Positions 8,895 to 64,000 of a DNA stretch of 64,000 bases are shown here, piece by piece. Each line of letters starts with the position of its first letter. The first letter of the stretch is position 1. This DNA comes from Candidatus Accumulibacter appositus (lineage in GTDB: Bacteria > Pseudomonadota > Gammaproteobacteria > Burkholderiales > Rhodocyclaceae): contig JEMX01000009.1 in the NCBI GenBank assembly GCA_000585055.1, forward strand, positions 225 through 64,224, given 5' to 3'. Below the pieces are notes generated by a model. The model was given only the letters and a program-made list of their open reading frames with translations, did not search any database and was not told where the DNA came from. The translations under genes and the position numbers were made by a program.

Positions 8895-9353
8895 ATGGTT
8901 TTGAAGCGCGCTGCGATACGTTTCTTCTCGATAGCCTGCTTTTGCATGGCACTTATTCAGTCACCCGCGCTGGCACGCGACATGGTCAGCATCAAGGGCT
9001 CAATCGTGAACATGCGCTCGGGACCCAGTACCCGATCCGAAATTCTGTGGGAACTCAAGCGGGGATACCCGTTGCAGGTGCTCAAGCGCAAGGGCAGCTG
9101 GCTGCAGGTGCGTGACTTCGAAAACGACAAGGGATGGGTGGCAAAGTCTCTCACCAACCGCAAGCCACACTATATCGTCAAGGCGTCGGTGGCCAATATG
9201 CGCAGTGGCCCGGGCACCCGTTATCGCATCATCGGCAAGTCCGAACGCTACGATCTGCTGCGCACCCGCAGCGCCAAGGCCGATTGGGTGCAGGTCGAAC
9301 GTTCCGATGGCGTCAAGGGCTGGGTGGCGAAACGCCTTCTGTGGGGTTGGTAA
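8895..9353 (+). CDS. Exported protein with two bacterial SH3 domains
   Basis: 152 residues. A strong ribosome site (GGAGG, 8881-8885) precedes the ATG. The N-terminal 28 residues form a classical signal peptide ending SPALA. Two SH3b repeats follow, each with the NMRSGP[SG]T signature and a GWVAK ending (about 40-90 and 100-148). Bacterial SH3 proteins usually bind peptidoglycan or other envelope ligands in the periplasm. No catalytic domain is present, so a binding or anchoring role is inferred. Confidence 0.82.
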   Translation: MVLKRAAIRFFSIACFCMALIQSPALARDMVSIKGSIVNMRSGPSTRSEILWELKRGYPLQVLKRKGSWLQVRDFENDKGWVAKSLTNRKPHYIVKASVANMRSGPGTRYRIIGKSERYDLLRTRSAKADWVQVERSDGVKGWVAKRLLWGW

Positions 9354-11915: not shown

Positions 11916-12685
11916 GTGCCGCTTGGCCTCTTTTCACTTGCCAGCCGTCCGGCCTTCCATACTTCCCAATGTCTGCCATGTCTTCATCGCTAACGCTTTC
12001 GCAAGTTCTTGATCGCCCCGATGTCTGGCGCGGCGATACGCTGGCCAGAGCACCCTTGCCCGGAGTGCCGACGGGCTTTGCCGAACTTGACCGGGAGCTG
12101 CCCGGCGGCGGCTGGCCGCGTGGCGGCTTGACCGAAATCCTGCCCTTGCGTCGGGGTATTGGCGAATTGAGTCTGCTATTGCCAGCACTGGCGCGGCTGT
12201 CGAGCGACGAACTTGCCTGGCTCGTCTGTGTGGCCTCGCCGCATCCGCTGCATGCGCCAGCACTGCACGAATCCGGCATTGATTTATCGCGCCTGCTGGT
12301 GGCCAGCGCGCCCGGTCGGGATAGCGCCTGGGTCTGTGAGCGCTCACTCGCGACTGATGGCGTTGGTGCAGTGGTCGCCTGGCTGCCGGAAATACAGACC
12401 AGCACACTGCGCCGGCTACAGCTTGCTGCCGAGAGCAGTCGCACTCTACTGTTCGTTTTTCGTCCGCCAGCCTGTGCCAGTCAATCCTCGCCGGCGCCGC
12501 TGCGTCTGGCCCTCGAAGGCGAGGGGGAAAAACTGATCGTTCGTCTTCTCAAGCGCCGTGGCAGCGCGCAGTCAGCGTCCCTGCCGATTAGCATTCAACG
12601 CCCGCTGCGCCGGCATCATGCTCTGGCTTGCCCTGTACCTGCCACGTCTGCCGCTCGAAGTCTTTCCCAGCCTGCCGTCGCCTAA
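11912..12685 (+). CDS. imuA: ImuA, translesion-synthesis accessory protein
   Basis: Up to 257 residues from a GTG overlapping the lexA stop; an ATG at 11978, just before [17 protein letters not shown], is a likely alternative start. The protein is a RecA/SulA-like ImuA with the family's [20 protein letters not shown] region (about 50-69, a degenerate P-loop area). In lexA-imuA-imuB(-dnaE2) cassettes, ImuA works with ImuB and DnaE2 in damage-induced mutagenesis. The imuB start lies inside the imuA 3' end. dnaE2 is not in this window. Confidence 0.88.
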
Positions 12686-35480: not shown

Positions 35481-36016
35481 GCTGAAAAGCCTTTTGGAAG
35501 CGCTTGGAGCGATTTTGCGAGAAGGGTCGCGTTTCTGCAAGCCCTCGCATACCTGTGGTAATGTCCTCGTTTGACTACCCAGTCGTCGCCAGCCGTCAGG
35601 CGTTCGCGATGTCGCTCACGCAAGATTTCGCCACGAGCCTCCCAGATGAGACGCTTTTCCCTGCTTGCCGTCCTGCCGCTTGAGCAGCTGCGGTCACTGC
35701 TCGTCTGGAACCGGAATGTTGTCGCGCGCTATGTGACGATGGGATTTGGATAGTTCGCGCACTATTATACGGACATTTCGGCAGGCGCTTGGCATGAGCG
35801 ACCAGGTCCTGATGCGCCCATCGCTTTCTTTGCCGCTCCGCGCCAGAGGAGGCGCGATCGAGAAATCGGCGACTCGGGAAGCTTCGCACGGCCAAGCTTT
35901 GCTATCATTGGCTGGCTACCTTTGCGGGTCACCGCTGCTGCTTTCCCCGTTGTCGGCAGTCTTGAGGGTGCGTTGTGCGGTTGGCGAACGCAAAGCGAGT
36001 GGAAGTGTGATGATGC
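35481..36016. other. 536-bp gap without a recognisable gene
   Basis: Several short frames on both strands lack ribosome sites and any motif. The right end borders a gene fragment resembling the C-terminus of cobD. The region may hold decayed sequence. Confidence 0.5.
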
Positions 36017-49326: not shown

Positions 49327-50361
49327 TCAGTGGCTGCGGGTCAGCAGCATCGCGTCGCCGTAGCTGAAGAAGCGGTAGCGTTCGGCAATTGCGTGTCGAT
49401 AGGCGCCACGAATGGCGTCGAGGCCGGCGAACGCCGAAACCAGCATCAGCAGGGTCGACTTCGGTAGGTGAAAATTGGTGATCAAGCGGTCCACCACCCG
49501 GAACTCGTAGCCGGGGGTGATGAAGATGTCGGTCTCGGCGGGACCGGCGTGCAGTTCCCCGTGCTGCGCGGCTGCTTCGAGGGCGCGCAGACTGGTCGTT
49601 CCGACGGCGACGACCTTGCCGCCACGGGCGCGGGTGCGGGCGATGGCGGCGATGGTTGCCGGCGGAATTTCGAAGCGCTCGGCGTGCATGCGGTGTTCGG
49701 CGACGTGATGCACGCGCACCGGCTGAAAAGTGCCGGCGCCGACGTGCAGCGTCAGCCACGCAACTTCGACGCTGCACTGTGCGAGTCGCGCGAGCAGCGC
49801 CTCGTCGAAATGTAGGCCAGCCGTTGGGGCTGCGACAGCGCCGGGCTGGCGCGCGAATACGGTCTGATAGCGGGCTTCGTCGTCGGCGCTGGCGGGGTGC
49901 GCGATATAGGGCGGCAACGGCAAGCGGCCGTGTCGTTCGATCAGCGTCCATAGGTCGCCGTCCTCGGCCAGTCGCAGCGCGAAAAACTCGCCCTGTGCGC
50001 CGCTACGGCCGTCGACGATCAGGGTGATCGCCTCTTCGAGAACAATCCGGCTGCCGGCTTTTGGCGACTTGCTGGCCCGAATCTGCGCCACGGCGTGGCG
50101 AGAATCGACGATGCGCTCGATCAACACCTCGATCTGGCCGCCGCTTTCCTTGCGGCCGCGGAGGCGCGCCCGGATCACCCGCGTATCGTTGAAAACCAGC
50201 AGGTCGCCGGCAGAAAGCAGCGTCGGGAGGGCAGTGAAGCGCCGATCGCTGAGTGTGCCGTCGCTGACCTGCAGCAGGCGGCTGGCGCTGCGTTCGCCAG
50301 TCGGGTGCTGGGCGATCAGCTCGCCCGGCAGGTCGAAGTCAAAGTCATCAAGGGTGAGCAT
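49327..50361 (-). CDS. queA: tRNA preQ1(34) S-adenosylmethionine ribosyltransferase-isomerase
   Basis: 344 residues. Begins [20 protein letters not shown], with [30 protein letters not shown] and [13 protein letters not shown], the standard QueA signatures. It transfers the ribosyl moiety of SAM to preQ1 in tRNA to form epoxyqueuosine. tgt is not seen in the window. Confidence 0.96.
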
Positions 50362-50383
50362 GGGCGTCTTGCGGTACTTAGCG

Positions 50384-50456
50384 GTGAGACGGGAAATTCA
50401 GGGAGCATGCTCCCCGCTCGGCGAACGATTCCGGCGTGGAAACCGGCATCCGCACG
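50384..50456. repeat. Repeat B copy 2
   Basis: Close match to the block at 2050-2120 (GAGACGGG, TTCAGGGAGCAT, CGAACGATTCCGGCGTGG, CCGGCATCCGCAC), here standing alone upstream of queA. Confidence 0.65.
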
Positions 50457-50601
50457 GCTAGGAGGCGGCTGGCCACGGAAAAGCCGTTGCACGACTAATG
50501 GCTGCGGAACTCGTTGCTGGCCGGGTCATTTTGCAGCTTGTCGGCGGCCGGAGAATCAGCGATAATCCGCAGCTCTTCTGGCCCACGCACTTCGGGCCGA
50601 A

Positions 50602-50685
50602 GCCGAGATGGCGGAATCGGTAGACGCAGCGGACTCAAAATCCGCCGATGGTGACATCGTGGGGGTTCGATTCCCCCTCTCGGCA
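50602..50685 (+). tRNA. tRNA-Leu (anticodon CAA)
   Basis: A class II tRNA of 84 nt with a long variable arm. Acceptor stem GCCGAGA pairs with TCTCGGC; the anticodon loop is CTCAAAA, giving CAA (reads UUG). The T arm has GGGTTCGATTCCC-like sequence. The 3' CCA is not encoded. No integrase or duplicated tRNA end is seen nearby. Confidence 0.95.
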
Positions 50686-50692
50686 CGAAATG

Positions 50693-50716
50693 AAACCCGC
50701 AGAAATGCGGGTTTGT
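50693..50716 (+). terminator. Intrinsic terminator after tRNA-Leu
   Basis: AAACCCGC, loop AGAAAT, GCGGGTTT, then GTCTTTTG. Short GC stem followed by a T-rich stretch. Confidence 0.75.
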
Positions 50717-50894
50717 CTTTTGTTTCAAGCATTTGCAGGGAAGCCTTTGTTGGTCAATGGGGCGCATGTTACCGCAAATAAGTGCCTTTTCCGGCTTCCT
50801 TTACGCCAAAATTCTGTCTTGAATCAAGCTGCGGGGAGGGGCGCTGTGAGCCCACAGCTCCTGCAACCTCAAGACTCCCAAACGACTGCGCGTA

Positions 50895-51797
50895 ATGGCT
50901 GAACCTGCCGTGCCGCCATCGCCTCTTGGCGCCTGGTGGCTTGCCATTCGACCGAAGACGCTGACGGTCGCCGTCGCGCCGCTGGTCGTTGGCCATGCGC
51001 TCGCCTGGGCGCAGACCGGCTCGCTGCTCTGGCAGCCGGCATTGCTTGCCCTGCTGGCGGCATTGCTGATCCAAATCGGCACCAATCTGCACAACGACGT
51101 CGGTGATTTCGAGCGCGGCAGTGATCGACCCGATCGCGTTGGGCCACCGCGGGTGACGGCCATGGGCTGGTTGTCGCCCGCCGCCGTACGGCGCGCAGCG
51201 TGGCTGGCCTTGGCCCTGGCCTTCAACTTCGGCATTTATCTCGCCTACCACGGCGGTTGGCCGATCGTCGTCATCGGGCTGACCTCCTTGCTCGCTGCCT
51301 GGGCCTATACCAACGGACCATGGCCAATCGCCTATCGGCCGCTCGGCGAACTGTTCGTTGTGCTTTTCTTCGGGTTGGTGGCCGTTGGTGGCAGCTACTA
51401 CCTGCAGACCCTGTCGATCAGCCCGGCCGCTCTTCTCGCCGGGGGGATGCTCGGGCTGTTCGCGGCAGCGGTGATCACGGTCAACAACTACCGCGATCTG
51501 GATACCGATCGGCAGGCCGGCAAGCGCACCCTGGCCGTCGTCGTCGGTCGGCGGGCGACGCAGTGGGTCTATGCGGCGGAAATGCTGCTGCCACTGCTGC
51601 TCTTGCCATGTCTGGCGCTTGTCGCCGGGCGCGGCCCCTGGCTGGCACTGCCGCTACTGGTAGTGCCACCGGCTCTGCAGCTACTGCAACGCTTTCGGCG
51701 TGAGCCTGCGGGTCCTGTGTTCAACCAGTTGCTGGCCAGCACAGCCCGCTTGCAGTTCGTCTACGCGCTTCTCCTGGCCCTGGCGATCGTTGCCTGA
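50895..51797 (+). CDS. menA: 1,4-dihydroxy-2-naphthoate polyprenyltransferase (MenA)
   Basis: 300 residues of the UbiA prenyltransferase family with about eight or nine membrane helices. First Asp-rich motif NLHNDVGDFERGSDRPDRVG and second motif NNYRDLDTDRQAGKRTLAV are MenA-like rather than UbiA-like. It attaches the prenyl tail to DHNA in menaquinone synthesis. No other men genes are in the window. It is convergent with cobA. Confidence 0.88.
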   Translation: MAEPAVPPSPLGAWWLAIRPKTLTVAVAPLVVGHALAWAQTGSLLWQPALLALLAALLIQIGTNLHNDVGDFERGSDRPDRVGPPRVTAMGWLSPAAVRRAAWLALALAFNFGIYLAYHGGWPIVVIGLTSLLAAWAYTNGPWPIAYRPLGELFVVLFFGLVAVGGSYYLQTLSISPAALLAGGMLGLFAAAVITVNNYRDLDTDRQAGKRTLAVVVGRRATQWVYAAEMLLPLLLLPCLALVAGRGPWLALPLLVVPPALQLLQRFRREPAGPVFNQLLASTARLQFVYALLLALAIVA

Positions 51798-51848
51798 GGC
51801 TGCGCCGCGGGCGGGCCCGGGACGGCAGTGGGGCTGCGCGGGGCGGCT

Positions 51849-52631
51849 TCAGGTGCCGCTGCCTGACGGCGGCTGGAACCAGGCCAGCTTCTCCTGCAGG
51901 CGAACCACGGTGCCAACGATGATCAGCGCGGGTGAGCCGATTCCGGCCGCTTCGACACGTTCCGGCAGGCTTGCCAGGTCGGCGGTCAACACCCGCTGCC
52001 GGCGAGTCGTGCCGTGCTGTACCACCGCGGCCGGATGGCTGGCCGGCAGGCCGTGGGCGATCATCTGGCGGCATATTTCGGCGAGCCCGCCAACCCCCAT
52101 GTAGAAGACGACGGTCAGCTTCGGGCGTGCCAAGGCCGGCCAGTCGAGATTGATCGTGCCGTCCTTGAGGTGGCCCGTCGCGAAGGCCACCGCCTGGGCA
52201 TGATCGCGATGTGTCAGCGGGATACCGCTGTACGCCGCGCAGCCTGCGGCGGCGGTTACTCCCGGAACGACCTCGAAAGGAATGCCGGACTCGACGAGCG
52301 TTTCGATTTCTTCACCACCGCGCCCGAAAACGAAGGGGTCGCCGCCCTTGAGGCGGACGACCATTCTGCCGGCCCGTGCCAGGCGCACCAGCAGTTGATT
52401 GAGTTGCTCCTGCGGTACGGTGTGATTGGAGCTTTTCTTGCCGACGTAGATTTTCTCGGCGTCCGCACGTGCCAGTTCGAGCACGCCGTCGGCAATCAGA
52501 TGATCGTAGACGATGGCGTCCGCTTCGCCGATCAGCCGTGCGGCGCGCAGGGTGAGCAGATCGAGGTCTCCGGGCCCGCTGCCGACGATGTAGACGGTTC
52601 CGACTGGCGGGGAGGAGTGCGTTGGCATCAT
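51849..52631 (-). CDS. cobA: Uroporphyrinogen-III C-methyltransferase
   Basis: 260 residues from the first of two adjacent ATGs. [37 protein letters not shown] and the [22 protein letters not shown] segments (quoted here only in part as motifs) define SUMT enzymes. It makes precorrin-2 for siroheme, cobalamin and heme d1. Position divergent from nirS fits supply of heme d1, the cofactor of the cd1 nitrite reductase. Confidence 0.94.
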
Positions 52632-52730
52632 TCCTTGTCTTCCGGTTTTTGGCTGAGGTGCAAGCATAAGCGCCCGTCGCCTTGCTTTTCAACTCGGACG
52701 GGACGATATGCTTTCTCCAACCGATGATAT

Positions 52731-52744
52731 TTGATGGAGGTCAA
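52731..52744 (+). promoter_or_regulatory. FNR-family box upstream of nirS
   Basis: TTGATGGAGGTCAA differs from TTGAT-N4-ATCAA at one base. It lies 97 bp before the nirS ATG and may be read by FNR or by a DNR/NNR-type regulator. Confidence 0.7.
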
Positions 52745-52786
52745 GGAACAGACCTATGCAGGCATGTCATCCTGCCCCCAGTCTGA

Positions 52787-54511
<1,725 letters not shown>

Positions 54512-54535
54512 TCACTACCGATTTGCCTGATCTGA

Positions 54536-54568
54536 ACCGGGGGGCCGCGGCCCCCCGGTTTTTTTTTG
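54536..54568 (+). terminator. Strong intrinsic terminator after nirS
   Basis: ACCGGGGGGCCGCGGCCCCCCGGT: a nearly perfect GC stem followed by a run of T residues. Confidence 0.92.
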
Positions 54569-54620
54569 GCTCGATTGCCGGCATAATTCCCGGCACCTCA
54601 ACTGCCACAAGGAGTCAAGG

Positions 54621-54953
54621 ATGAAAGTGCCAGTTCTATTGCTAGCGACTGCCATGTGTTCGCCGCTGGCGGTCGCTGCACCGCCGCCGGTCGACCCGGC
54701 GATGCTCGAGCTCGCCGACCAGAGCCGTTGTCTGGGATGTCACGACGTCGAGGTGACGGTACGCGGCCCCGCGTGGCGCGATGTCGCCAAACGCTATCGC
54801 GGCAAACCCGAAGTCGAGGAAGTGCTGGTGGAAAAGGTCTACACAGGCGGCGGCGGCGTCTGGGGTAAGGACTACATGTCGTCCAACAAGCGCGCCGGCA
54901 AGGAGAATATCCGCATCCTGGTGAAGTGGATTCTCACCCTGCCGGATTCCTGA
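54621..54953 (+). CDS. Small periplasmic c-type cytochrome (c551-like)
   Basis: 110 residues. Signal peptide (about 1-20) and one heme site CLGCH (about 38-42). YTGGGGVWG and the following DYMSSN, probably with the axial Met, match the cytochrome c551/c552 class that donates electrons to NirS. It lies 110 bp after nirS, beyond the terminator, with its own ribosome site (AAGGAG). Confidence 0.88.
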   Translation: MKVPVLLLATAMCSPLAVAAPPPVDPAMLELADQSRCLGCHDVEVTVRGPAWRDVAKRYRGKPEVEEVLVEKVYTGGGGVWGKDYMSSNKRAGKENIRILVKWILTLPDS

Positions 54954-54968
54954 TTTGCGGCGTCTGGC

Positions 54969-55796
54969 CTACAAGGGCGTGTCGTTGGCGCGTGCCCTGA
55001 GCAGATCAATGATCATTGCCGATACTTGCTCGATCGAGCGGTGGGTGACGTCAATCACCGGCCAGTTGCGCGCCACGAACAGGCGACGCGCGTCCTGCAC
55101 CTCCTTGCGCAGCGAGCTGAAGTCGTTGTACTGACTGTCTTCGTTGTCCCATGCCCGCAAGCGCGCGGAGCGGATGCGCGCGAGCCGCGTCGGGTCTACC
55201 GTCAGCCCGACGATCAGCGGGCCCTTCGCTTTCAACAGCCCCATTGGCGGCTGCGAAAACGGCACCAGAGGAACGTTGGCGGCCTTGATGCCGCGTGAGG
55301 CCAGGTACATGCAGGTTGGCGTCTTGGTTGCCCGCGAGACGCCGACGACGATCACGTCGGCGCCGTCGAGATCTTCGCTGGCAATGCCGTCGTCGTGGGC
55401 CAGGGTGTATTTCATGGCCTCGATGCGGCGGTAGTAGTCTTCGTCGAAGGCGTCGCCAGAACTGTTGTGGAACTGTACGGCAGCGCTGGAGTACTCGGCG
55501 AGGTTGGCGATCAGCGGTTCGAGGGCAAACTGGCAGGGGACGAGCAGACGGCCGCAGCCTTCTTCGAGTGCCTGACGGACGTCGGTGTGGCTGATGCTGT
55601 GCAGGACATAGCCCGGCGATTGCGCGACCTCGCCAAGAATCTCGGGCACCTGCCCCAGGTGACGGACCATCTTCCACAGCCGGCGCTGGATTTCCAGCCC
55701 TTCGAGCTGCGCGACCGCATTACGCGCCAGCAACTCGACCAGTTCGCCCGAGGCGTGCGAGACGAGGTGCAATACGAGGGTTTTGCTCACGGCCAT
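54969..55796 (-). CDS. ppsR: Phosphoenolpyruvate synthase regulatory protein
   Basis: 275 residues, DUF299/PSRP family. GVSRATKTPTCMYLA (about 152-166) is the phosphate-binding loop. It is a bifunctional kinase and pyrophosphorylase that inactivates and reactivates PEP synthase by ADP-dependent threonine phosphorylation. ppsA is not in the window. It is convergent with the c551-like gene. Confidence 0.92.
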   Translation of the reverse strand: MAVSKTLVLHLVSHASGELVELLARNAVAQLEGLEIQRRLWKMVRHLGQVPEILGEVAQSPGYVLHSISHTDVRQALEEGCGRLLVPCQFALEPLIANLAEYSSAAVQFHNSSGDAFDEDYYRRIEAMKYTLAHDDGIASEDLDGADVIVVGVSRATKTPTCMYLASRGIKAANVPLVPFSQPPMGLLKAKGPLIVGLTVDPTRLARIRSARLRAWDNEDSQYNDFSSLRKEVQDARRLFVARNWPVIDVTHRSIEQVSAMIIDLLRARANDTPL

Positions 55797-55806
55797 CCTT
55801 TACCAG

Positions 55807-56559
55807 TCAGCGGTGGTGACCGCCGTCGAGGCGCAGCACGGTGCCGTTGATCATTACGTTCTTGAGTACGTGCAGGACCAGCATCGCGAACTCGGCAGGG
55901 TCGCCGAAGCGATGCGGAAATGGGATCTGGTGCGCCAGCCGCGAATCGAGGTTCTTTTCCATGGCGAACAGCGTCGGCGTGCCGAACAGCCCGGGCGCGA
56001 CGCCGACGACGCGAATACCCAGCGGACCGAGTTCGCGTGCCGCCGGCAGGATCATGCTCACGACGCCGCCCTTGGACGCCGAATAAGCCGCTTCGCCGCT
56101 CTGCCCGTCGTAGGCGGCGACCGATGCGGTCGACAGGATGACGCCGCGTTCGCCGTTGGAGCGCGGCTGCAGGCGCGCCATATCGGCGGCGGCGAGGCGC
56201 ATCATGTTGAAGGTCGAGATCAGGTTGACTTCGACGAGCTGACGGAAGTCCTCCAGCGGCATCGGGCCATTGACACCCACCGTCGGTTCCGAGTGCCCGC
56301 GGCCGACGCAGTGCACCAGCACGCGCGCCGCGCCGTGCGCATCGCGCGCCGTCGCCAGGGCATTCTCCGCCGCCTGCGAATTGGCGACATCGCAGGGAAT
56401 GGCCAGGCCACCGATCTCGTCGGCAACCTTCTGCACGCCGACGGCGTCGATGTCGATTACCGCCACCTTGGCTCCCGCCTCGGCGAGATAACGCGCCGTT
56501 TCCGCGCCCAAGCCCGATGCTGCGCCGGTGACCACTGCCGGACACGCCCAAAGATCCAT
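55807..56559 (-). CDS. Short-chain dehydrogenase/reductase
   Basis: 250 residues, classical SDR: cofactor motif VVTGAASGLGAETARYL (TGxxxGxG), catalytic Ser in STASVAAY and YSASKGG (Tyr-x-x-x-Lys). C-terminal features (APGLFGTP, GTVLRLDGGHH) resemble type II 3-hydroxyacyl-CoA dehydrogenases. Likely role in fatty or branched-chain acyl-CoA oxidation; substrate not certain. It ends 11 bp before ppsR's start on the same strand. Confidence 0.85.
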   Translation of the reverse strand: MDLWACPAVVTGAASGLGAETARYLAEAGAKVAVIDIDAVGVQKVADEIGGLAIPCDVANSQAAENALATARDAHGAARVLVHCVGRGHSEPTVGVNGPMPLEDFRQLVEVNLISTFNMMRLAAADMARLQPRSNGERGVILSTASVAAYDGQSGEAAYSASKGGVVSMILPAARELGPLGIRVVGVAPGLFGTPTLFAMEKNLDSRLAHQIPFPHRFGDPAEFAMLVLHVLKNVMINGTVLRLDGGHHR

Positions 56560-56809
56560 TTTCTGCCTCCTCGTTCCACCGGCATCCGCTGCCGAAGCAA
56601 GCGCGCATTATGGGCCGTGCCCGCGCCGGGTGCAAACTGCCGGGCGGGCCGCAAATCGGCAGCTTTGCTGCTGCTCGGAGGCGCTTCTTCGGATAGAATC
56701 GCCCTCTTGGCGGCCACTTCGCTGCCGACCCCCCGGAAGGCGCCGAATCGCCGCGCCACCGACCCGAACCTGACTCGAACTTAACGCCAACCTAAGCGAT
56801 TCCCGCATC

Positions 56810-57151
56810 ATGCCCGCGCTTCCTGCCCTCGCCCTTCTCCTTCTCGTCGCTGCTCCTCTGGCCATCGCCGAGCCCGTCCCCCCGGTCGCGGCCCCGTCGC
56901 CCGAGCGCCAGAGGGCGCTGGTTCACCTCGTCCGCCAGGACTGCGGCTCCTGCCACGGCATGACCCTGCAGGGCGGCCTCGGGCCGGCCCTGACGCCCGC
57001 GGCGCTGCGCGAAAGGCCGGCTGATTCCCTGGTCGCCACCATCTACGGCGGCCGCCCGGGAACCCCGATGCCGCCCTGGCACCGCTTCCTCAGCGAGGCC
57101 GAGGCCACCTGGATCGTGCAGCAGTTGCTGCTTGGCTTTCCGGAAGAGTAG
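56810..57151 (+). CDS. nirC: Cytochrome c55X-like protein (NirC type)
   Basis: 113 residues. N-terminal signal peptide (about 1-20), heme motif CGSCHG, then GGLGPAL and GRPGTPMPPW with the axial Met. This pattern matches NirC (cytochrome c55X) of denitrification clusters. NirC can reduce NirS and help heme d1 maturation. It is separated from nirS by ppsR and the SDR gene on the other strand. Confidence 0.82.
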   Translation: MPALPALALLLLVAAPLAIAEPVPPVAAPSPERQRALVHLVRQDCGSCHGMTLQGGLGPALTPAALRERPADSLVATIYGGRPGTPMPPWHRFLSEAEATWIVQQLLLGFPEE

Positions 57152-57319
57152 CTGCGCCGCAGGTGCCTCCTCGATATTCAACGGCATGGAACCAGAAGCA
57201 AGCGGGAAACGGAGGCTCCATTTCAGCGCTTCACAGCTGTCGGTTTTTTTTACACGCCGCTTGTCGTCAGAGCCCGCGAAACCACGAAGAACTCCACTAA
57301 AGCATACGCATATAACTTC

Positions 57320-57337
57320 TGGTACGAAAAATGCTTG
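57320..57337 (+). promoter_or_regulatory. Candidate sigma-54 promoter of the PEP-CTERM gene
   Basis: TGGTACGAAAAATGCTTG has GG (57321-57322) and GC (57333-57334) with the exact 10-base spacing of -24/-12 elements. It lies 69 bp upstream of the ATG. Published work on Zoogloea-type floc formers links PEP-CTERM genes to RpoN and PrsK/PrsR. Confidence 0.6.
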
Positions 57338-57405
57338 CACCGTCCAGCAGGAGGCTCGCTAGTTTGCGACTATCCAATCCTACGAACATTCTGGAGGAAC
57401 AAGTC

Positions 57406-58455
57406 ATGAAGCATCGTTTTCTACATCTGGCAGTGGCGGCGGCCGTTTGCGCCCTGGGTAGCTCCGCGCATGCAGCCCTGGTGCCCGCGGGCATCTTCAA
57501 TGGTAACGTTGGCTTGAGTGTCGATGGCATCGGCAGCAACAGCACGCCGGTTGGCTCGGTGCAAGCCGACATTCCGGTCGGCGCTACGGTTCTGCAGGCC
57601 TACCTCTACAGCGCCGGGACACCCTTCCCGTGGTACTCCGACAGTCCAACGACGCTCGCCGCGTACAATGGCGCCGGCATCACTCTCGACGGTAATGCCA
57701 TCACCAACTTTGACACGCTCGTCGGTGCCACCAGCACCTTGCGGCCTGATATTGGCCAGTGGTTCACCGGGCGCGCCGATGTGACTTCGCTGGTGCAGTC
57801 GTTGGTCACCGGCGCTGTCAGCAACAACTTCTCGTGGCAAGTGGGTGAGGGCTCGCTGAACAATCGTATCGACGGCGAAGTGCTGGCCATCGTCTATTCG
57901 CACCCTTCGCTACCGGTGGGCAGCGTCGCCTTGCTGAACGGCGGACAGGACACCGCCGGAGAAACCACCACGGTCAACCTGGGAGCGCCGCTCTCCGATC
58001 CGACGGCTCCGGGATTTGCGGCGGAGTTGGGGTTTGCCATCTCGTTCAGTTGCTGCAACCAGGCGTCCACCGTGTCGGTAAACGGTAGCCCGGTGACGAG
58101 CAATGCCGGCAATAATGACGATGGGTTGGCTGTTGCGGATGGCTCATTGATCACCGTCGGTGGCCTTGGTGACCCGGCAGCGAACTCGCAGAGCTACGCC
58201 AACGATCGCGAAAAATACAACTTGGCACCGTTCTTCAACACTGGCGATACGTCGTTCTCGATCTTCACGAGAAATGCCACCGGCGACGACAACATTTTCT
58301 TCGCCAGCCTGTATCTCACCGGAAACATTCGCGACGTGAACCCGCCGGACCCGAACCCGATGCCGGAACCGGCTACCTACGCCTTGATGCTTGCTGCGCT
58401 TGGCATGCTGGGGTTCCGGGGACAGCGCAGGAAGGAGCACGACGCAGCGGTTTGA
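57406..58455 (+). CDS. PEP-CTERM sorting-domain protein
   Basis: 349 residues. Signal peptide (about 1-23), then a beta-rich exported domain of unknown fold with few cysteines. The C-terminus has the exosortase signal: MPEPATYALMLAALGMLGF followed by the basic tail RGQRRK. Such proteins are processed by exosortase and archaeosortase-like enzymes and usually end up in exopolysaccharide or biofilm matrix, relevant to floc growth. Ribosome site GGAGGAA. A candidate sigma-54 promoter precedes it. Confidence 0.9.
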   Translation: MKHRFLHLAVAAAVCALGSSAHAALVPAGIFNGNVGLSVDGIGSNSTPVGSVQADIPVGATVLQAYLYSAGTPFPWYSDSPTTLAAYNGAGITLDGNAITNFDTLVGATSTLRPDIGQWFTGRADVTSLVQSLVTGAVSNNFSWQVGEGSLNNRIDGEVLAIVYSHPSLPVGSVALLNGGQDTAGETTTVNLGAPLSDPTAPGFAAELGFAISFSCCNQASTVSVNGSPVTSNAGNNDDGLAVADGSLITVGGLGDPAANSQSYANDREKYNLAPFFNTGDTSFSIFTRNATGDDNIFFASLYLTGNIRDVNPPDPNPMPEPATYALMLAALGMLGFRGQRRKEHDAAV

Positions 58456-58480
58456 TTCGCTTGCTACAGGCTTCGAACGA

Positions 58481-58507
58481 GACCCCGCTTCGGCGGGGTT
58501 TTCTTTT
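58481..58507 (+). terminator. Intrinsic terminator after the PEP-CTERM gene
   Basis: ACCCCGC, loop TTCG, GCGGGGT, then TTTCTTTT. Confidence 0.88.
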
Positions 58508-58569
58508 GGTGCCCCCGGCAGGGCGGGCTCCTGCCGCGCAGTTGCGATCTCTCCCAAGGAATGGCCCGC

Positions 58570-58779
58570 ATGAATTTCTCCGATGTCCTCAAGGCACTCA
58601 ACCAGGCATCGGCCTTCGAGCTGTAGCGCATGCGCGTGGCGATCGACCGGGTGCTCGAACAGCCGCACTGGCTGGACTCGATTCGCTCACGGCTGCGCGT
58701 TGGGCAGAGCGTCACCTATGCCGTGCGTGCCGGGGTGGCGGCCGGAAACCCGCAATTGGCTGGACCCATGCCAGTGAAA
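58570..58779 (+). pseudogene. Gene remnant with an internal amber codon
   Basis: A frame opens at ATG 58570 (MNFSDVLKALNQASAFEL), meets TAG at 58624-58626, and continues in the same frame as RMRVAIDRVLEQPHWLDSIR and RLRVGQSVTY before losing coding character near 58780. The continuity across a single stop suggests one small protein inactivated by a nonsense change and then truncated. No family is assigned. It lies between the PEP-CTERM gene and the DGR. Confidence 0.5.
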
Positions 58780-58909
58780 TCTTGCCGCAGGCGCTGTGGC
58801 AGCTGCCACTTCTGGGGGAGGGGATGCGTCAAGGGTCAAGCGAGGGCGGCGCGAATTTTTTGCGTCACACCTGGGCTTCGTCCTTCAGCCCAGCAGGCGG
58901 CAGCCAGGG

Positions 58910-59812
58910 TCACGCCTCCGGCGCACCCCCCGCTGCTGGCGGCAGGCGCTCCGCGCCCGCCGCCTGGCCGGTGGACCTCAGGGAAAAGCGGAACCCCAGG
59001 GAGCGGGAGCGGAGGTCGCGGGGCCTCAGGATGCGGTACGCGGAGCGCAGCCACCCGGCCCCGTCGAGCCACGAGCCGCCGCGCACGACGCGGGGGGCTT
59101 CGTCCTCCTCGGGGCCGCGCGGGTTTTCGTGCAGTTCGCCGTCGTACTGCCGCGGCCCGTCCGCGCACCACTCCCAGACGTTTCCGTGCATTTCGTACAG
59201 CCCCCAGTCGTTGGGGGCAAAGGATTTGACCGGCACCGTCTTTTCCCGGTAAAGGCCCTTCTCGCCGCCATCATAGGGATCATTGCCGTCGTAATTGGCC
59301 TGCGCCGGGCTGATCGTCGCGCCGAAGCTGAACGGCGTCTCGCTCCCGGCACGGCAGGCGTATTCCCATTCCGCCTCGGTCGGCAGTTCGAGTGTCACGC
59401 CCGACAACATCGCCTGCGCTTTTCCGAGGAAAGCTTGCACGTCGTCCCAGTTCACCAGCTCGACCGGATTCAAGCGGTCGTCCTTGAAGTGGCTCGGGTT
59501 GTGCCCCATCACCGCCTGCCACAGTGCCTGCGTGCACGCCGTGTCGGCCAGCCAGTAGCCGGCCGTCAGGCGCACCCGGTGGCGCGGCCCTTCGTCAGCG
59601 AATCGTTCGGCCTCATTTTCCGGCGAGCCCATCCAGGACTCGCCCGGCTCGATCCAGCGAAAACACTGCACGACGCCGGCGATCTCGACCTTGACCCACA
59701 GGCCGTGCTCGTCGTCGCCCCAGGCCGAGGCACAGGGCAGCGGCAGCACCGGCGGGCGACGCAGCGCCTCGGGAGGAAACGGCGGTTCAGAGGAAAGGCT
59801 GGCGCTGGCCAT
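58910..59812 (-). CDS. DGR target protein 1 (formylglycine-generating-enzyme fold)
   Basis: 300 residues from the ATG at 59812; the frame is open to 60118, through the template repeat, and ATG 60004 is another possible start. An N-terminal Pro-rich stretch precedes an FGE-sulfatase (C-type-lectin-like) domain: RWIEPGESWMGSP, ADTACTQALWQAVMGHNPSH, LPTEAEWEYACRAG, NDWGLYEMHGNVWEWCADG and RVVRGGSW. The variable repeat covers residues of about 238-279, near the C-terminus, as is usual. The active-site Cys pair of true formylglycine-generating enzymes is not present at the expected place, so a ligand-binding role is inferred. It is the last gene of the DGR. Confidence 0.85.
   Translation of the reverse strand: MASASLSSEPPFPPEALRRPPVLPLPCASAWGDDEHGLWVKVEIAGVVQCFRWIEPGESWMGSPENEAERFADEGPRHRVRLTAGYWLADTACTQALWQAVMGHNPSHFKDDRLNPVELVNWDDVQAFLGKAQAMLSGVTLELPTEAEWEYACRAGSETPFSFGATISPAQANYDGNDPYDGGEKGLYREKTVPVKSFAPNDWGLYEMHGNVWEWCADGPRQYDGELHENPRGPEEDEAPRVVRGGSWLDGAGWLRSAYRILRPRDLRSRSLGFRFSLRSTGQAAGAERLPPAAGGAPEA
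58941..58961 (-). other. Hairpin just downstream of variable repeat 1
   Basis: Nine-base stem with a GGA loop on the coding strand (GGCGGGCGC-GGA-GCGCCTGCC, one G-T pair), 15 bp past the end of the variable repeat. The core GGCGC-GGA-GCGCC also follows variable repeat 2 (61868-61880) but not the template. DGRs often need such a hairpin for retrohoming; the same bases also encode a conserved AGAERL, so the function is uncertain. Confidence 0.45.
58977..59100 (-). repeat. DGR variable repeat 1 (VR1)
   Basis: 124 bp aligned without gaps to the template at 60009-60132. I count 18 differences, all at coding-strand adenines of the template. Codons hit include AAC to CTC, AAC to GAC, AGG to TGG and AAC to ATC. 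Confidence 0.96.
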
Positions 59813-60008
59813 CGGAGTGGGGCAAGGCCCGGAAGGTGTTGCAGGGGCCGAAAGCGGCGGCCCGGGAGGCTGTCGGCGCCGGCATCCACCGCTTGCGCCT
59901 ACCGGCGCCCCGGGCGCCTTGCAGTTCGCCGACGCGATTAGCGGCGCCGGCAGGATGTCGCATCTGGTCCATGATCGTCGGCAAATCCATGCCTCTGCTG
60001 TCATCGAG
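59813..60008 (-). other. Region between TR and target 1
   Basis: Open in two minus-strand frames. One continues into target 1 (Pro-rich: QPPGPPLSAPATPSGPCPTP); another gives 67 codons from ATG 59993 ending in a stop near 59787 (begins MDLPTIMDQMRHPAG). Neither start has a clear ribosome site. It may be the 3' part of the DGR template RNA, which usually extends past the TR. Confidence 0.4.
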
Positions 60009-60132
60009 CTCAGGGAAAAGCGGAACCCCTGGTTGTGGTTGCGGTTGTCGCGGTGCCTCTGGTTGCGGTACGCGGAGCGCAGCCTCCTGGCTTCGTTGTT
60101 CCACGAGCCGCCGCGCACGACGCGGGGGGCTT
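60009..60132 (-). repeat. DGR template repeat (TR)
   Basis: 124 bp on the minus strand, starting 16 bp after the reverse transcriptase stop. Adenine-rich codons (six AAC, plus CAG, CAC, AGG, GAC, GAA) stand at the positions that vary in both targets, giving an Asn-rich virtual peptide (NNEARRLRSAYRNQRHRD, then NRNHNQGF). It supplies the RNA that is reverse-transcribed with adenine infidelity. The 3' ends of TR and VRs diverge directly after CCCTGAG on the coding strand (initiation-of-mutagenic-homology region). Confidence 0.96.
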
Positions 60133-60148
60133 TTTGTTTTGCTGATGC

Positions 60149-61177
60149 TCATCCCGAAGCCGTACTATACACCGCGCAGTTCCCGCCAGCCGCCAGCAGG
60201 CGCCGGCGAAAATCGAGGCTCTGGCAGCCGCACAGCGTCGCCAGGGCGAGATCGGCGGCGCGCTGCAAGTCGGTTTCGCTGACGATGGCCGCCGCCGCGG
60301 CGCGGTCGATGCGCTGCGTCGCAGCGCGAAAGCGGGCCAGCTTGCGGGGACTTGCCAGCACCACCCCCTGGCGGACGCGAAAGCCGCAGAACTGCATGCC
60401 GGCGTTGCTTGGCGCGATGCGCACCCGTGCCTTGAGGCGCAGGCCGCGTTCTTCCTGCAAATGAGTGCTGAGCGCGGCCAGGCTGCGCTCAGCGTCCTGC
60501 CGGCTGTCGCAGGCCCAGAAGATATCGTCCATGTAACGTACGACTTGGCCGCAGCCCGGGTGCGCGAGCAGCAGCCGGTCAGCGCTGTCAAGGTAGGCGT
60601 TGGCGAAATGCTGCGAGGTCAGCGCGCCGATGGGCAAACCTCGTCCCGGTCCACTGGTCGTCCCGGACTCGATAATGCGCGCCAGCAAACGCAGAAAGCG
60701 CGCTCCCTTGAAGCGCCGCGCGAGCAGTTCGAGCAGGAGGTCGTGGCGGATCGACGGGAAATAAGCGTCGACATCGACCTGGACGAAGATCGGCCAGGCG
60801 CGCAGGGCGCGCTGCACTGCCGCCACGGCGGCATGCACGCCCTTGCCGGGTCGGCAGGCGTAGCAGCCGTCGACCAACATGCGCTCGAAGCGTGCTTCGG
60901 CAAGGTTGAGAATCGCGTGATGCAGCACGCGGTCGGCAAAGCACGCGGCGTGGATGGTGCGCCGTTTGGGGTCGTGGATGACAAAGGCGCTGGCCCGTCC
61001 GGCCGGAGCGCGCTCGCCGAGTATGGCGTCGGCCAGCTCGTCAAGGTGGTGCTCCAGACGGGCGAGAAAACGCGCCACTGCCGGCCGTCCGGCCTTGCCG
61101 CGCGCAGCCTTCCAGGTCGCCAGAGCGAGGTTCTGCCGGTCGGCCAAAGCTTCCAGCGTGATCGCCTGACGGTGCAC
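60149..61177 (-). CDS. DGR reverse transcriptase
   Basis: 342 residues from the GTG at 61177, 10 bp after the HRDC gene; upstream open frame to 61420 overlaps that gene and has no conserved sequence. RT motifs in order: DPKRRTIHAACFADRVLHHA, YACRPGKGVHAAV, VQVDVDAYFPSIRHD (first catalytic Asp), GLPIGALTSQHFANAYL and catalytic YMDD (215-218). The IGxxxSQ form of motif 4 is characteristic of DGR reverse transcriptases rather than group II introns or retrons. No maturase domain. It copies TR RNA to mutagenised cDNA that replaces the VRs. Confidence 0.96.
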   Translation of the reverse strand: MHRQAITLEALADRQNLALATWKAARGKAGRPAVARFLARLEHHLDELADAILGERAPAGRASAFVIHDPKRRTIHAACFADRVLHHAILNLAEARFERMLVDGCYACRPGKGVHAAVAAVQRALRAWPIFVQVDVDAYFPSIRHDLLLELLARRFKGARFLRLLARIIESGTTSGPGRGLPIGALTSQHFANAYLDSADRLLLAHPGCGQVVRYMDDIFWACDSRQDAERSLAALSTHLQEERGLRLKARVRIAPSNAGMQFCGFRVRQGVVLASPRKLARFRAATQRIDRAAAAAIVSETDLQRAADLALATLCGCQSLDFRRRLLAAGGNCAVYSTASG

Positions 61178-61187
61178 GTTTCGCCGC

Positions 61188-61658
61188 CTAGGCCGGCGCC
61201 AGGGCCTGTTGCAGGACGGCGAGAAAGCGCTCGGCGTAACGTTCCAGTCGCGCCGGACCAACGCCGTCGATGGCTCCGAGCGCTTCGAGCGTGCGCACCC
61301 GTCCGCGCACCATGTTGGCCAGCTGCTCGTTGGTGAACACCGCGTACTGCGCCACCGCCTCGCTCTCGGCGATGCTCTTGCGCAAGGCTCGCAACTGCAC
61401 GAAGACCGCGAAATCGGCATCGTTCAAGACCTCGCGATAATCGATCCGGCGAGCGCTGCCCTGATCGGCCTTCAAGGCGTCTGGCAGCGGGCCAGGGCCG
61501 GGCGCCAGACTGACGCAGATCGCCCAGAACGACGCTTCGCCGGCGGCCACCAGCTGGCGCTCGACGCTGAGCACGCGACTGGCGGCGAGCAGCTGGTTGA
61601 GTTCGGCCTCGGCGGCGCCCGGATTGCACGCCGGAATGGCGAAAAAGCGGTAACTCAT
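61188..61658 (-). CDS. DGR accessory protein with HRDC domain
   Basis: 156 residues from the ATG at 61658 (AAAGGA upstream). The N-terminal half starts MSYRFFAIPACNPGAAEAEL and has RVLSVERQLVAAGEASFWAI; the C-terminal half (about 78-152) is a helical HRDC domain (LRALRKSIAESEAVAQYAVF, EQLANMV, LEALGAIDGVGPARLERYAE). HRDC proteins are a recognised alternative to the Avd accessory factor in DGRs and may bind RNA or cDNA. It sits between target 2 and the RT gene, 36 bp and 10 bp away. Confidence 0.88.
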   Translation of the reverse strand: MSYRFFAIPACNPGAAEAELNQLLAASRVLSVERQLVAAGEASFWAICVSLAPGPGPLPDALKADQGSARRIDYREVLNDADFAVFVQLRALRKSIAESEAVAQYAVFTNEQLANMVRGRVRTLEALGAIDGVGPARLERYAERFLAVLQQALAPA

Positions 61659-61694
61659 CACTGCAAATCCTTTTTCAAAACGCCTGCCGCTGGC

Positions 61695-64000
61695 CTATTT
61701 CTTTTTGCCAGGGGAGCGTCGGAAAGCGCCGCCGAGCTTTTCGAGCAGTTTGTCGACGCCGCTTCGCGGCGGTTCGGCAGCCGCCGAACCGCCGTGGCCT
61801 TGCCGTCCCGGCAAGGCCGGTAAATCCTGCGGCCCCTCCGGGGCCTCCGACCGCTTCTCGTGCCGGAGGCGCTCCGCGCCCGCCGCTTGACCGGCGGACC
61901 TCAGGGAAAAGCGGAACCCCAGGTAGAGGGAGCGGTAGACGCGGGGCCACTGGTCGCGGTACGCGGAGCGCAGCCTCCCGGCAGCGTAGAACCACGAGCC
62001 GCCGCGCACGACGCGGGGGGCTTCCCTGTCCTCCGGGCCGCGCGGGTTCTCGTGCAGTTCGCCGTCGTACGGCCGCTGCCCGTCCGCACACCATTCATCA
62101 ACGTTGCCGTGCATTTCATACAGCCCCCAGTCGTTGGGCGCAAAGGATTTGACCGGCACCGTCTTGTTCCGGCTAAGGCCTTTGGCGCCGCCATCATAGG
62201 GACGATCGCCGTTGTAATTGGCCTGCGCCGGGGTGATCGTCGCGCCGAAGCTGAACGGCGTCTCGCTCCCGGCACGGCAGGCGTATTCCCATTCCGCCTC
62301 GGTGGGCAGGTCGACCTTTACCCCTGGCAGCATCCCCTGCGCTTTTTCGAGGAAGGCTTGCACGTCGTCCCAGTTCACCTGCTCGACGGGATTCAGAGGG
62401 GCGTCCTTGAAGTGGCTCGGGTTGCGCCCCATTACCGCCTGCCACAATGCCTGCGTGCACGCCGTGTCGGCCAGCCAGTAGCCAGCCGTCAGGCGCACCC
62501 GGTGGCGCGGCCCTTCGTCGCTATGGCGCTCCGCCTCGTTGTCTGGCGAACCCATCGAGAATTCCCCTGGCTCGATCCAGCGAAAACGCTGCACGACGCC
62601 GGCGAAGTCTACGTCGAGGTAGAGGCCGTGGCGGTCGCGTGCCATCGCCTTTGCCCAGGCTGGGCGCGGCGTCCGGACGAAGCGATAGCTGCGGCCGGCG
62701 CTATAGAGCGAGATACTGCTCAGCTCGGTGGCAAGTCCGACCGGCAGTGGCAGCGGGATGTCGCCGGCTTCGATCCAGCTATTCCGCCGGCCAGCCGCGG
62801 GGCTGCTTTCGCAGACGACGCCGCCCTGGTAGAGAATGCCCGGCCAGCGAACAGCTTCGTCCGGCGCCGGGTGTAAAAAGAAGCGATCGTCCTGCTGCTG
62901 CAGCCAGCAGCGGCGCTCTGCCATTCCTTGCCGGCCCGCGTTTCGCGCTGCAGCGATGTCGGCAGCCTGGAAGCCGTCTGGAATCTCGCTGTTGCCGGTC
63001 AAGGCCCAGAGCGGCGCAAGCAGCGTGGAATTCGCTTCTACCCAGCCGCTATCCTTTCCATGGCGGTAGAGCAGGTCACGGGCGTAGTCGGGGGCATCGC
63101 CGGGCGTGTCCTGCGGATGAGCGGCGAAACGGGCAAACCACTTTTCTGCCTGCTTCACCGGCGCTTCGAATTCCGGGCTCCTGGCGAGCTCGGGCGGCAC
63201 GTGCGCCCGCCAGATCAGCAGCTCCGCATTCTCGGTCGAACGCCCGCGCCAGGCGTGCGCGTACAAGGTGCGGCGCAGGATTTCCTGTTGCTCGGCGGGA
63301 CCGATCTCCTTCTGGAAGCGATCGCGGTAGGTGGCGACGTGGTCCGGCGCTATCTCGCAGAAACGGTAACCTGCCGCCACCACCGGTGCGTAGGACCAGA
63401 CGATGGCTTCCAATCCGGGCTCGGCGGCGGATGCCGGGCTTATGCTGCGCAAGGAACGCAGCAGACCGGGTTCGACGCGTACGCAGCAGGCGATGCGCGC
63501 AAGCAGGGTTTCCCGCAGATGCGCCGTGTTGGCCGAGTTCACCGCCCCTTGCGGCCGGACCGGGCGCATGCCGTGCTCGCCATTGAGGCAGTGCACGCGG
63601 CCGTGCCGTGCTGCTTCTTCCGGGACCAGGCTCGGCGACATGGGTACCCAGGCGACGGGTGGTGTCCCGTGTTCGGCCAGACCTTGCATAAAGGTTTGCC
63701 ACGCTTGCGCCTTGCCGGGGTCGCCGGCGAGTAGTCCAAGGTCACCGAGCAGCAGCACCTGTGTGCCGGGAGCGGGCAGGGGGATCGGGCGCCGGGTGGC
63801 AACTGCCCGGCCGCGCCCGCGTTGCACCGAGAGAGTGACGAAGGGCGACTCGTTGACCACCCACAGGCTCAGGTTGCCATCACCATGCCGGCGGGACACT
63901 TCGCGCCAGAGTTGAGCGTAGTCTTTCTCGTAGGGCAGCAGGCGGTCGGCGATATCGATGACCACCAGCAGTTCGCCGCCCCAGTGGGTCAGGCGACGTC
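61695..64000 (-). CDS. DGR target protein 2 (vWA-like N-terminus plus FGE fold), 5' end outside window
   Basis: At least 767 codons; the frame is open past 64000, so the start is missing. N-terminal part seen here begins with THWGGELLVVIDIADRLLPY and LSLWVVNESPFVTL, resembling a von Willebrand A-like fold without a full DxSxS metal site. A helical middle region follows, then an FGE-sulfatase domain: RWIEPGEFSMGSP, LPTEAEWEYACRAG, NDWGLYEMHGNVDEWCADG. Variable repeat 2 lies about 67 residues before the C-terminus, which ends in a basic tail (RRSPGKKK). The FGE part is nearly identical to target 1. vWA-FGE architecture is known from NTP-dependent conflict systems with MoxR ATPases; that link is inferred. 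Confidence 0.85.
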   Translation of the reverse strand, partial: RRLTHWGGELLVVIDIADRLLPYEKDYAQLWREVSRRHGDGNLSLWVVNESPFVTLSVQRGRGRAVATRRPIPLPAPGTQVLLLGDLGLLAGDPGKAQAWQTFMQGLAEHGTPPVAWVPMSPSLVPEEAARHGRVHCLNGEHGMRPVRPQGAVNSANTAHLRETLLARIACCVRVEPGLLRSLRSISPASAAEPGLEAIVWSYAPVVAAGYRFCEIAPDHVATYRDRFQKEIGPAEQQEILRRTLYAHAWRGRSTENAELLIWRAHVPPELARSPEFEAPVKQAEKWFARFAAHPQDTPGDAPDYARDLLYRHGKDSGWVEANSTLLAPLWALTGNSEIPDGFQAADIAAARNAGRQGMAERRCWLQQQDDRFFLHPAPDEAVRWPGILYQGGVVCESSPAAGRRNSWIEAGDIPLPLPVGLATELSSISLYSAGRSYRFVRTPRPAWAKAMARDRHGLYLDVDFAGVVQRFRWIEPGEFSMGSPDNEAERHSDEGPRHRVRLTAGYWLADTACTQALWQAVMGRNPSHFKDAPLNPVEQVNWDDVQAFLEKAQGMLPGVKVDLPTEAEWEYACRAGSETPFSFGATITPAQANYNGDRPYDGGAKGLSRNKTVPVKSFAPNDWGLYEMHGNVDEWCADGQRPYDGELHENPRGPEDREAPRVVRGGSWFYAAGRLRSAYRDQWPRVYRSLYLGFRFSLRSAGQAAGAERLRHEKRSEAPEGPQDLPALPGRQGHGGSAAAEPPRSGVDKLLEKLGGAFRRSPGKKK
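61868..61880 (-). other. Hairpin downstream of variable repeat 2
   Basis: GGCGC-GGA-GCGCC stem-loop, 19 bp past the end of VR2. It is the counterpart of the hairpin after VR1. Confidence 0.4.
61900..62023 (-). repeat. DGR variable repeat 2 (VR2)
   Basis: 124 bp, gap-free alignment with the template (60009-60132). I count 16 differences, all at coding-strand adenines of the template. The pattern is independent of VR1 (for example AAC to TTC and AAC to TAC at the first two variable codons). Confidence 0.96.

Follow-up and report, generated by a model that had tools for sequence, protein, structure and literature searches.

An HRDC-linked diversity-generating retroelement with two variable targets beside a MoxR-type ATPase gene in Candidatus Accumulibacter appositus

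Diversity-generating retroelements (DGRs) of clade 5A, as described by Dore et al. (2024; PMC10907252), include loci with a MoxR layout, such as those of Thiohalocapsa (DGR 8) and Thiorhodococcus drewsii, where a MoxR-like ATPase is encoded directly upstream of the target, effectors are adjacent and the target extensions are reported to be without predicted domains. The same account names Accumulibacter among the organisms with multiple related DGRs and proposes DGR-diversified sensors as a bacterial adaptive immunity that is still to be tested. A comparable arrangement is known from the MoxR-vWA(VMAP) ternary systems with a DGR (Kaur et al. 2020, PMC7159879; Nostoc sp. UHCC 0926 plasmid pn2), where an ATPase gene precedes a target that ends in an FGE domain, and a further FGE gene and the DGR reverse transcriptase (RT) follow. 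In the TvpA DGR of Treponema denticola, as presented in PMC4891356, an HRDC accessory gene touches the RT gene and the variable protein (2y3c) is of the FGE/C-type-lectin type, while the account of phage DGRs by Guo et al. (2011, PMC3240598) places GC-rich hairpins with 7-10 bp stems and purine-rich GRNA tetraloops 4-34 bp 3' of the variable repeat (VR), where they are needed for efficient homing in BPP-1; a hairpin within an archaeal coding sequence is described in PMC5006420. Here we describe a DGR that shares features with each of these systems, located at positions 58910-64000 of a 64,000-nucleotide stretch (the window) of contig JEMX01000009.1 of Candidatus Accumulibacter appositus, a wastewater bacterium of the Accumulibacter group whose genome is in 218 contigs.

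The locus constitutes a complete DGR on the minus strand, with the gene order target 2, HRDC gene, RT, template repeat (TR) and target 1 (Table 1), and probably represents an HRDC-linked DGR without Avd, by which sensor proteins of a conflict system built around MoxR are varied. An FGE-sulfatase domain is recognised by Pfam in both window target proteins, the translated RT contains the motifs IGALTSQ and YMDD, and 16 bp separate the RT stop from the TR core, the A-tolerant match being a few bases longer. An earlier note on this DNA, made from the letters alone, had described such an element with two targets, one template, an RT with YMDD and IGxxxSQ and an HRDC gene, all sharing one transcription direction and with the template 16 bp past the RT stop. 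This description holds throughout, apart from the completeness of target 2 within the window, as this gene is cut by the window end. The longest open reading frame for target 1 begins inside the TR, but the gene itself most likely starts near 59812.

The element adds a member to a DGR lineage that has been described before, of which the form of its hairpins and a probable vWA domain make it a variant. Its MoxR-type ATPase gene directly upstream of a target recalls clade 5A, and the RT of T. drewsii falls in the same 30-row clade of our tree as the window RT; it is from this RT and the layout, and not from the tree of Dore et al., that membership of clade 5A is inferred. Unlike the clade 5A description, which has no predicted domains in the target extension, a divergent vWA domain is proposed here for that extension, and neither GGA hairpins nor a comparison with broken RTs appear in the passages of Dore et al. 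(2024) considered here. The Nostoc pn2 locus differs in having Avd, a VMAP-C protein, no listed HRDC gene and a target whose N-terminus is identified by NCBIfam as SAV_2336_NTERM. The accessory gene of T. denticola lies between TR and RT according to PMC4891356, whereas at the window locus it comes before the RT, and this locus has a MoxR gene in addition. In place of the tetraloops and short stems reported for phage DGRs, the hairpins here have GGA triloops on stems that reach 17 bp, with two to four of them often in a row.

Table 1. Features of the retroelement and of the repeat that flanks its island. Positions are those of the window; window-equivalent positions continue the same numbering past its end, and L006 is a stretch reaching beyond the window.
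Feature	Position	Strand	Basis or remark
Long target (target 2): N-terminal extension and FGE domain with VR2	61695-63998, continuing to window-equivalent 64526	-	Full gene 943 aa
vWA-like region in the N-terminal extension of target 2	63543-63998	-	AlphaFold2 predicted local distance difference test (pLDDT) 87.9; conserved Asp pair; hhalign E 6.6e-4 (probability 27%); Foldseek of the piece equivocal
FGE-sulfatase (C-type-lectin-like) domain, target 2	61911-62579	-	Pfam; residues 650-872 of the 943-aa protein
VR2	61897-62023	-	Repeat comparison with TR
GGA-triloop hairpin 3' of VR2, within the coding sequence	61795-61819	-	Hairpin scan
Second hairpin past VR2: 12-bp stem, 4-nt loop, not GGA	61767-61794	-	Hairpin inspection
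HRDC-domain accessory gene	61188-61661	-	Pfam HRDC, E 8.6e-17
DGR reverse transcriptase	60149-61177	-	RVT_1, E 8.5e-14; GTG start inferred by aligning relatives
TR	60006-60140 (127-nt core 60006-60132; A-tolerant match reaches 60140)	-	Repeat comparison
Short target (target 1), FGE domain for the most part	58910-59812	-	Start inferred; Pfam FGE-sulfatase
VR1	58974-59100	-	Repeat comparison with TR
GGA-triloop hairpin past VR1: 12-bp stem, one G.T pair	58938-58964	-	Hairpin scan
Left repeat copy: truncated gene start with TAG	58521-58719	+	Direct-repeat comparison
Right repeat copy; intact gene, outside the window	L006:8405-8604; intact gene L006:8405-9006		Direct-repeat comparison

Of the 26 adenines in the 127-nt template core, 18 are changed in VR1 and 16 in VR2. 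The sole difference at any other base, found in both VRs, is a C-to-G change at core position 125 of 127, near the 3' edge where TR and VR begin to diverge, and with this position excluded the probability of all mismatches falling at adenines is 6e-16 for VR1 and 7e-14 for VR2. When template mismatches were permitted at A alone, four matching segments were obtained, while none were found with C alone or G alone; the four segments found with T alone are the identical pairs on the opposite strand. Five shuffled copies gave no matches. Chance repeats and plain gene duplication were considered as sources of the VR/TR pattern and are ruled out by the base control and the shuffles. Seventeen template codons containing A were counted, the final one at the repeat edge; a stop codon cannot be reached from any of them, and the protein diversity available across all 17 is approximately 10^13.4.

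The earlier note had proposed RT phylogeny as a check on the assignment, and the window RT indeed groups with the DGR RTs: in a 57-row tree the 55 DGR-type rows are split from two group II-like rows of the same genome (support 100/100). The best PDB sequence match of the RT is 8ub7 (E 1.4e-69; next match 5.8e-30), which we take to be the Bordetella phage DGR RT. The tree position and the PDB sequence matches thus rule out a group II intron RT. The window RT belongs to a five-row Accumulibacter set (98/96) nested in a 39-row, HRDC-linked clade (100/99), in which a Prosthecochloris locus and the set L206-L211 carry HRDC plus Avd, and the other branch of 32 rows carries HRDC only, one viral row (L094) having been left unchecked. 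The simplest reading of this distribution in the tree is that Avd was lost after HRDC had been gained.

The closest named RTs are those of Candidatus Accumulibacter contiguus (77%) and of Accumulibacter metagenome-assembled genomes, and of 28 genomes from the genus, its own among them, 21 have RT matches at E <= 1e-5, distant RTs included. A scan of named genomes yielded 45 loci, including those of Zoogloea, Methylomonas lenta, Thiothrix eikelboomii, Thiorhodococcus drewsii, Azospirillum brasilense, Defluviicoccus, Nitrosomonas and Elusimicrobia. An HRDC homologue precedes the RT in 44 of these (tblastn), the exception (L199) beginning at a contig end, and the order MoxR, target extension, FGE, HRDC, RT is found in 23/45. 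A hidden Markov model built from five Avd sequences detected Avd in six of the 45 loci (L206-L211), in both other DGRs of the host genome and in the reference loci, and gave no match in the window's locus, L006. In the phage collection 115 records match the RT, every one below 60% identity, and a search for related loci that started from a single RT confirmed no relative. Long targets with two FGE matches in a single open frame were observed in L202, L205 and L216, and the RT of the related locus L084 (G169:C121; contig shared with L176) has YMDH for YMDD, with no TR/VR pair in the stretch searched.

Five RT matches are present in the host genome. A second DGR (L008, G000:C45:1-18000) comprises a TR at 7098-7228, VRs at 6829-6956 and 12424-12552 and an RT at 8069-9130; its two targets are NACHT-FGE proteins with weak TIR/DUF4062 matches, and a bAvd gene is divergently oriented on the opposite strand. 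The third DGR (L007, G000:C104) has a TR at 1353-1442, a VR at 1016-1105 within an FGE gene, an RT and a bAvd gene on the opposite strand. The remaining two RTs form a long branch of their own in the tree and are taken as group II-like.

Upstream of the window, on the same strand, the remainder of target 2 directly adjoins a gene encoding a MoxR-type AAA+ ATPase (AAA_5, E 2.4e-17; bpMoxR, 34.1 bits against a cut-off of 27), which is overlapped by 4 bp by a third gene (454 aa). The earlier note mentioned neither of these two genes, which lie outside the window, nor the vWA-like part of target 2 or the hairpins. We examined 23 named MoxR loci for an upstream open reading frame and scanned ten of these for protein families; an effector-type family was found in all ten, namely TIR in three (one C-terminal), DUF4062 in two, Trypsin_2 in two (one below cut-off), and SEFIR/TIR, CHAT (just below cut-off) and a phosphorylase with metallophosphatase in one each. 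A further DUF4062 domain is encoded at L174.

Several findings at the window locus weigh against a conflict system that is functional in all its parts. The third gene matches no Pfam family at E 0.1, and no effector domain was found in it; it aligns with its closest relatives only in part, behind their effector, and beyond the closest rows the alignment is too divergent to be interpreted. No effector was found upstream of the locus by tblastx against the effector parts of three relatives, the best match in that region extending over 41 aa (E 6e-4) on the strand opposite to the gene. Because the third gene lacks an effector domain, a complete defence system at this locus is doubtful, and this is the clearest counter-evidence. 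The locus is not classed as a complete MoxR-vWA ternary system, as a third component with a VMAP or effector domain was not encountered. The effector domain appears to have been lost in this genome or to be supplied from elsewhere.

An immune or defence role is what we infer for the locus. The diversified proteins of this DGR could instead serve in attachment or self-recognition within aggregates, as C-type-lectin-like DGR targets elsewhere bind surfaces, but we consider this unlikely. What speaks for a conflict system is that these targets are linked to a MoxR ATPase and that relatives add TIR, trypsin-like, CHAT and DUF4062 domains; Dore et al. (PMC10907252) and Kaur et al. (PMC7159879) assign such linkage to conflict systems.

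The earlier note regarded the element as active on the grounds that two differently mutated VRs share one template. This argument is weak, but activity now finds support in a comparison of loci with intact and broken RTs, which serves as an activity test without the need for population reads. TR and VRs of 32 loci were compared over the same core (GGSW to GFR, usually 93 nt) in gapped alignments. An RT was counted as intact where an unbroken tblastn match spans its catalytic part, giving 23 loci and 38 targets after targets without an anchor had been dropped. L055 and L187 each lost one target in this way, and L201 and L213 lost both of theirs; L177 and L185 are single-target loci. Broken RTs are represented by eight loci with 14 targets, L215 having been dropped, and L199, which is cut by a contig end, was kept apart (3/73 non-A sites changed). 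Where the RT is intact, 553 of 854 A sites and 30 of 2680 non-A sites are changed, without gaps, while broken-RT loci show changes at 163/283 A sites and 40/950 non-A sites (average 4%) together with eight gaps. The difference at non-A sites is significant (Fisher P 4e-8), a value that is overstated as the loci are related. Differences at non-adenine sites, which the earlier note had proposed to look for in populations, are absent between TR and VR in 28 of the 38 intact-RT targets, including both VRs of the window (0/140 over the compared core). As long as the RT is intact, the VRs thus continue to copy the TR at sites other than A, which is what continual retrohoming would produce, and these sequence comparisons suggest that rewriting continues wherever the RT is intact. 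Two further counts, one ungapped (28/2705 intact vs 159/1106 broken; inflated by indels) and one from a wide local alignment extending beyond the edge of the VR (225/4818 vs 159/1892), were set aside; all three agree in direction.

Two observations count against continued rewriting as a general rule: L185 differs at 12 of 72 non-A sites despite an intact-looking RT and contributes 12 of the 30 differences in the intact set, and L217, L053 and L214 have drifted little despite their broken RTs. The "broken" call depends on tblastn coverage of contigs that are mostly draft. At the window locus, the DGR may recently have fallen silent, its parts being present and homing or response no longer driven; decayed RTs are known from related loci, the effector domain that relatives have is missing from the third gene, and only 166 bp separate this gene from the island edge upstream. 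Recent silence is nonetheless improbable in view of the open RT frame with YMDD and of the non-A sites, none of which is changed here against the average in the broken-RT targets.

The N-terminal extension of the long target is probably a divergent vWA domain, the usual partner of MoxR. This component rests on a moderate fold and profile match without recognition by Pfam or NCBIfam. Modelled by AlphaFold2, the complete target of a relative (L174, 18 rows) reaches a mean pLDDT of 70, with its alpha/beta region mostly at 84-94 apart from one poorer loop, and the window's own 152 residues were modelled separately (Table 1). FGE-type folds lead the Foldseek matches of the L174 model, with the Treponema denticola variable protein 2y3c among the top matches. 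Among the further matches, all of them weak, are NorQD chain G (E 9.8e-3), which we take to be the vWA protein NorD, the vWA domain of CMG2 (3.2e-2) and unrelated folds such as HGPRT. An alignment of 18 extension sequences contains six invariant columns, two of which are Asp; these two would lie at or just past the ends of the strands that we read as core strands 1 and 4. The metal-binding Asp pair of vWA domains is placed at those strand ends in the account of Kaur et al. (2020, PMC7159879).

A profile of eight SAV_2336-like N-termini from cyanobacteria and Methylosinus, one of which was run against NCBIfam and recognised, was compared with the extension by hhalign; the gene preceding these eight targets is annotated as MoxR in five cases, ATPase in two and hypothetical in one. 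The vWA core is matched in register with the domain (Table 1) and with the whole extension (E 4.3e-3), while three unrelated control pairs gave E-values of 0.1, 0.3 and 0.84 and a single Nostoc sequence gave 0.26. Weighing against a vWA domain are the low hhalign probabilities, that for the whole extension being 8%, and the lack of any match to the extension in Pfam or NCBIfam and of a useful match in a PDB sequence search. Furthermore, Foldseek with the 152-residue domain alone returned mixed Rossmann-like folds, vWA among them, with a best E-value of 0.009. If the extension is a vWA domain, loci so far described as variation would join one mechanism that comprises a variable sensor, vWA, MoxR and effector.

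Hairpins were sought in the 140 nt past the GFR codons, with triloops required, G.T pairs and one mismatch permitted and a score of at least 8. The scan was tried on 62 targets, of which 56 had an anchor and enough sequence; the 56 include targets from loci related to one another, from broken loci and from some that have no RT. A GGA-loop hairpin is present in 37 of the 56, with 0.1 expected from shuffles, and 67 of the 79 triloop hairpins past the VRs have GGA on the sense strand; an equally long stretch upstream of the VRs contains two triloop hairpins, neither with GGA. The inner arms of 41 hairpins from ten loci fall into 25 versions, with G-C or C-G as the closing pair throughout, and it is thus structure and loop that are conserved rather than sequence. 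Both window targets carry a downstream hairpin, in variant form. In an earlier scan, limited to perfect Watson-Crick stems with loops of 3-8, hairpins were found in 19/38 targets against 3.9 expected, and window target 1 was missed. No description of DGR triloop hairpins was found in a literature search that covered part of the journals, and none of this hairpin form among the 15 of 457 entries listed.

A general association of these hairpins with the lineage is weakened by their absence from 19 of the 56 targets, several intact-RT loci among them. They were not found in the examined targets of L187, L192, L194, L198, L202, L205 and L085, and the Methylomonas-like L181 and L182 are without the GGA triloop, three of their four targets having a GGAT loop. 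The hairpins might also be terminators or general repeat elements unrelated to homing, as they are GC-rich, lie near gene ends, and GGA/TCC hairpins occur away from VRs at window positions 35822-35854 and, beyond the window, at L006:5602-5630. We regard this as very unlikely given the prevalence of GGA on the sense strand, the location of the target 2 hairpins inside coding sequence, and their distribution: eight loci scanned in full (117,675 bp) have 35 GGA/TCC hairpins close to target ends, every one with sense GGA, and one elsewhere, away from the TR, while seven further pieces of DNA from the genus (97,690 bp) contain none. As homing-related structures, GGA-triloop hairpins would provide a defined recognition element and a DNA signature for targets of this DGR lineage, remote ones included. 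Paired or single FGE targets with GGA hairpins, some with an extension and MoxR, were also observed at L051, L052, L054, L056 and L058, where no RT match was found in the stretch searched; these are possibly remote targets or relics.

In the mechanism that we propose, the TR transcript would be copied by the RT with errors at adenines, presumably helped by the HRDC protein, and the cDNA would replace the 3' ends of the two FGE/C-type-lectin targets by retrohoming, guided by VR/TR identity and perhaps by the hairpins just downstream of the VRs. Sixteen codons of each target would be rewritable, never yielding a stop. The N-terminus of the long target, as a divergent vWA domain, would connect the variable sensor with the MoxR ATPase; in relatives this ATPase may act with the effector encoded upstream, and the ligand of the variable sensors would be foreign. 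Joined into one proposition, HRDC-linked, Avd-less DGRs would mark their targets with GGA-triloop hairpins, often in tandem, that are read by an HRDC-RT complex in the place of Avd, the long targets would be cryptic vWA partners of MoxR, and the loci would be full ternary systems with a self-rewriting sensor; we consider this combination about equally likely to hold or to fail.

The island segment that carries the locus (window-equivalent 58720-67079) is flanked by a 200-bp direct repeat (93% identity). A single match to the flanking gene is present in each of 11 further genomes from the genus, and in three of the four relatives examined (L227, L228 and L229) it lies close behind a cytochrome gene without an island, the fourth relative being without this neighbourhood. 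Most simply, the island would thus be an insertion at a conserved place. A PEP-CTERM protein gene adjoining the island (57331-58455, plus strand) has no match in 27 other genomes of the genus, and just past the island a 3473-aa open frame (L006:9221-19639, plus strand) runs off the contig end. A tRNA gene at 50602-50685 (plus strand) is the sole Rfam match in positions 50000-64000.

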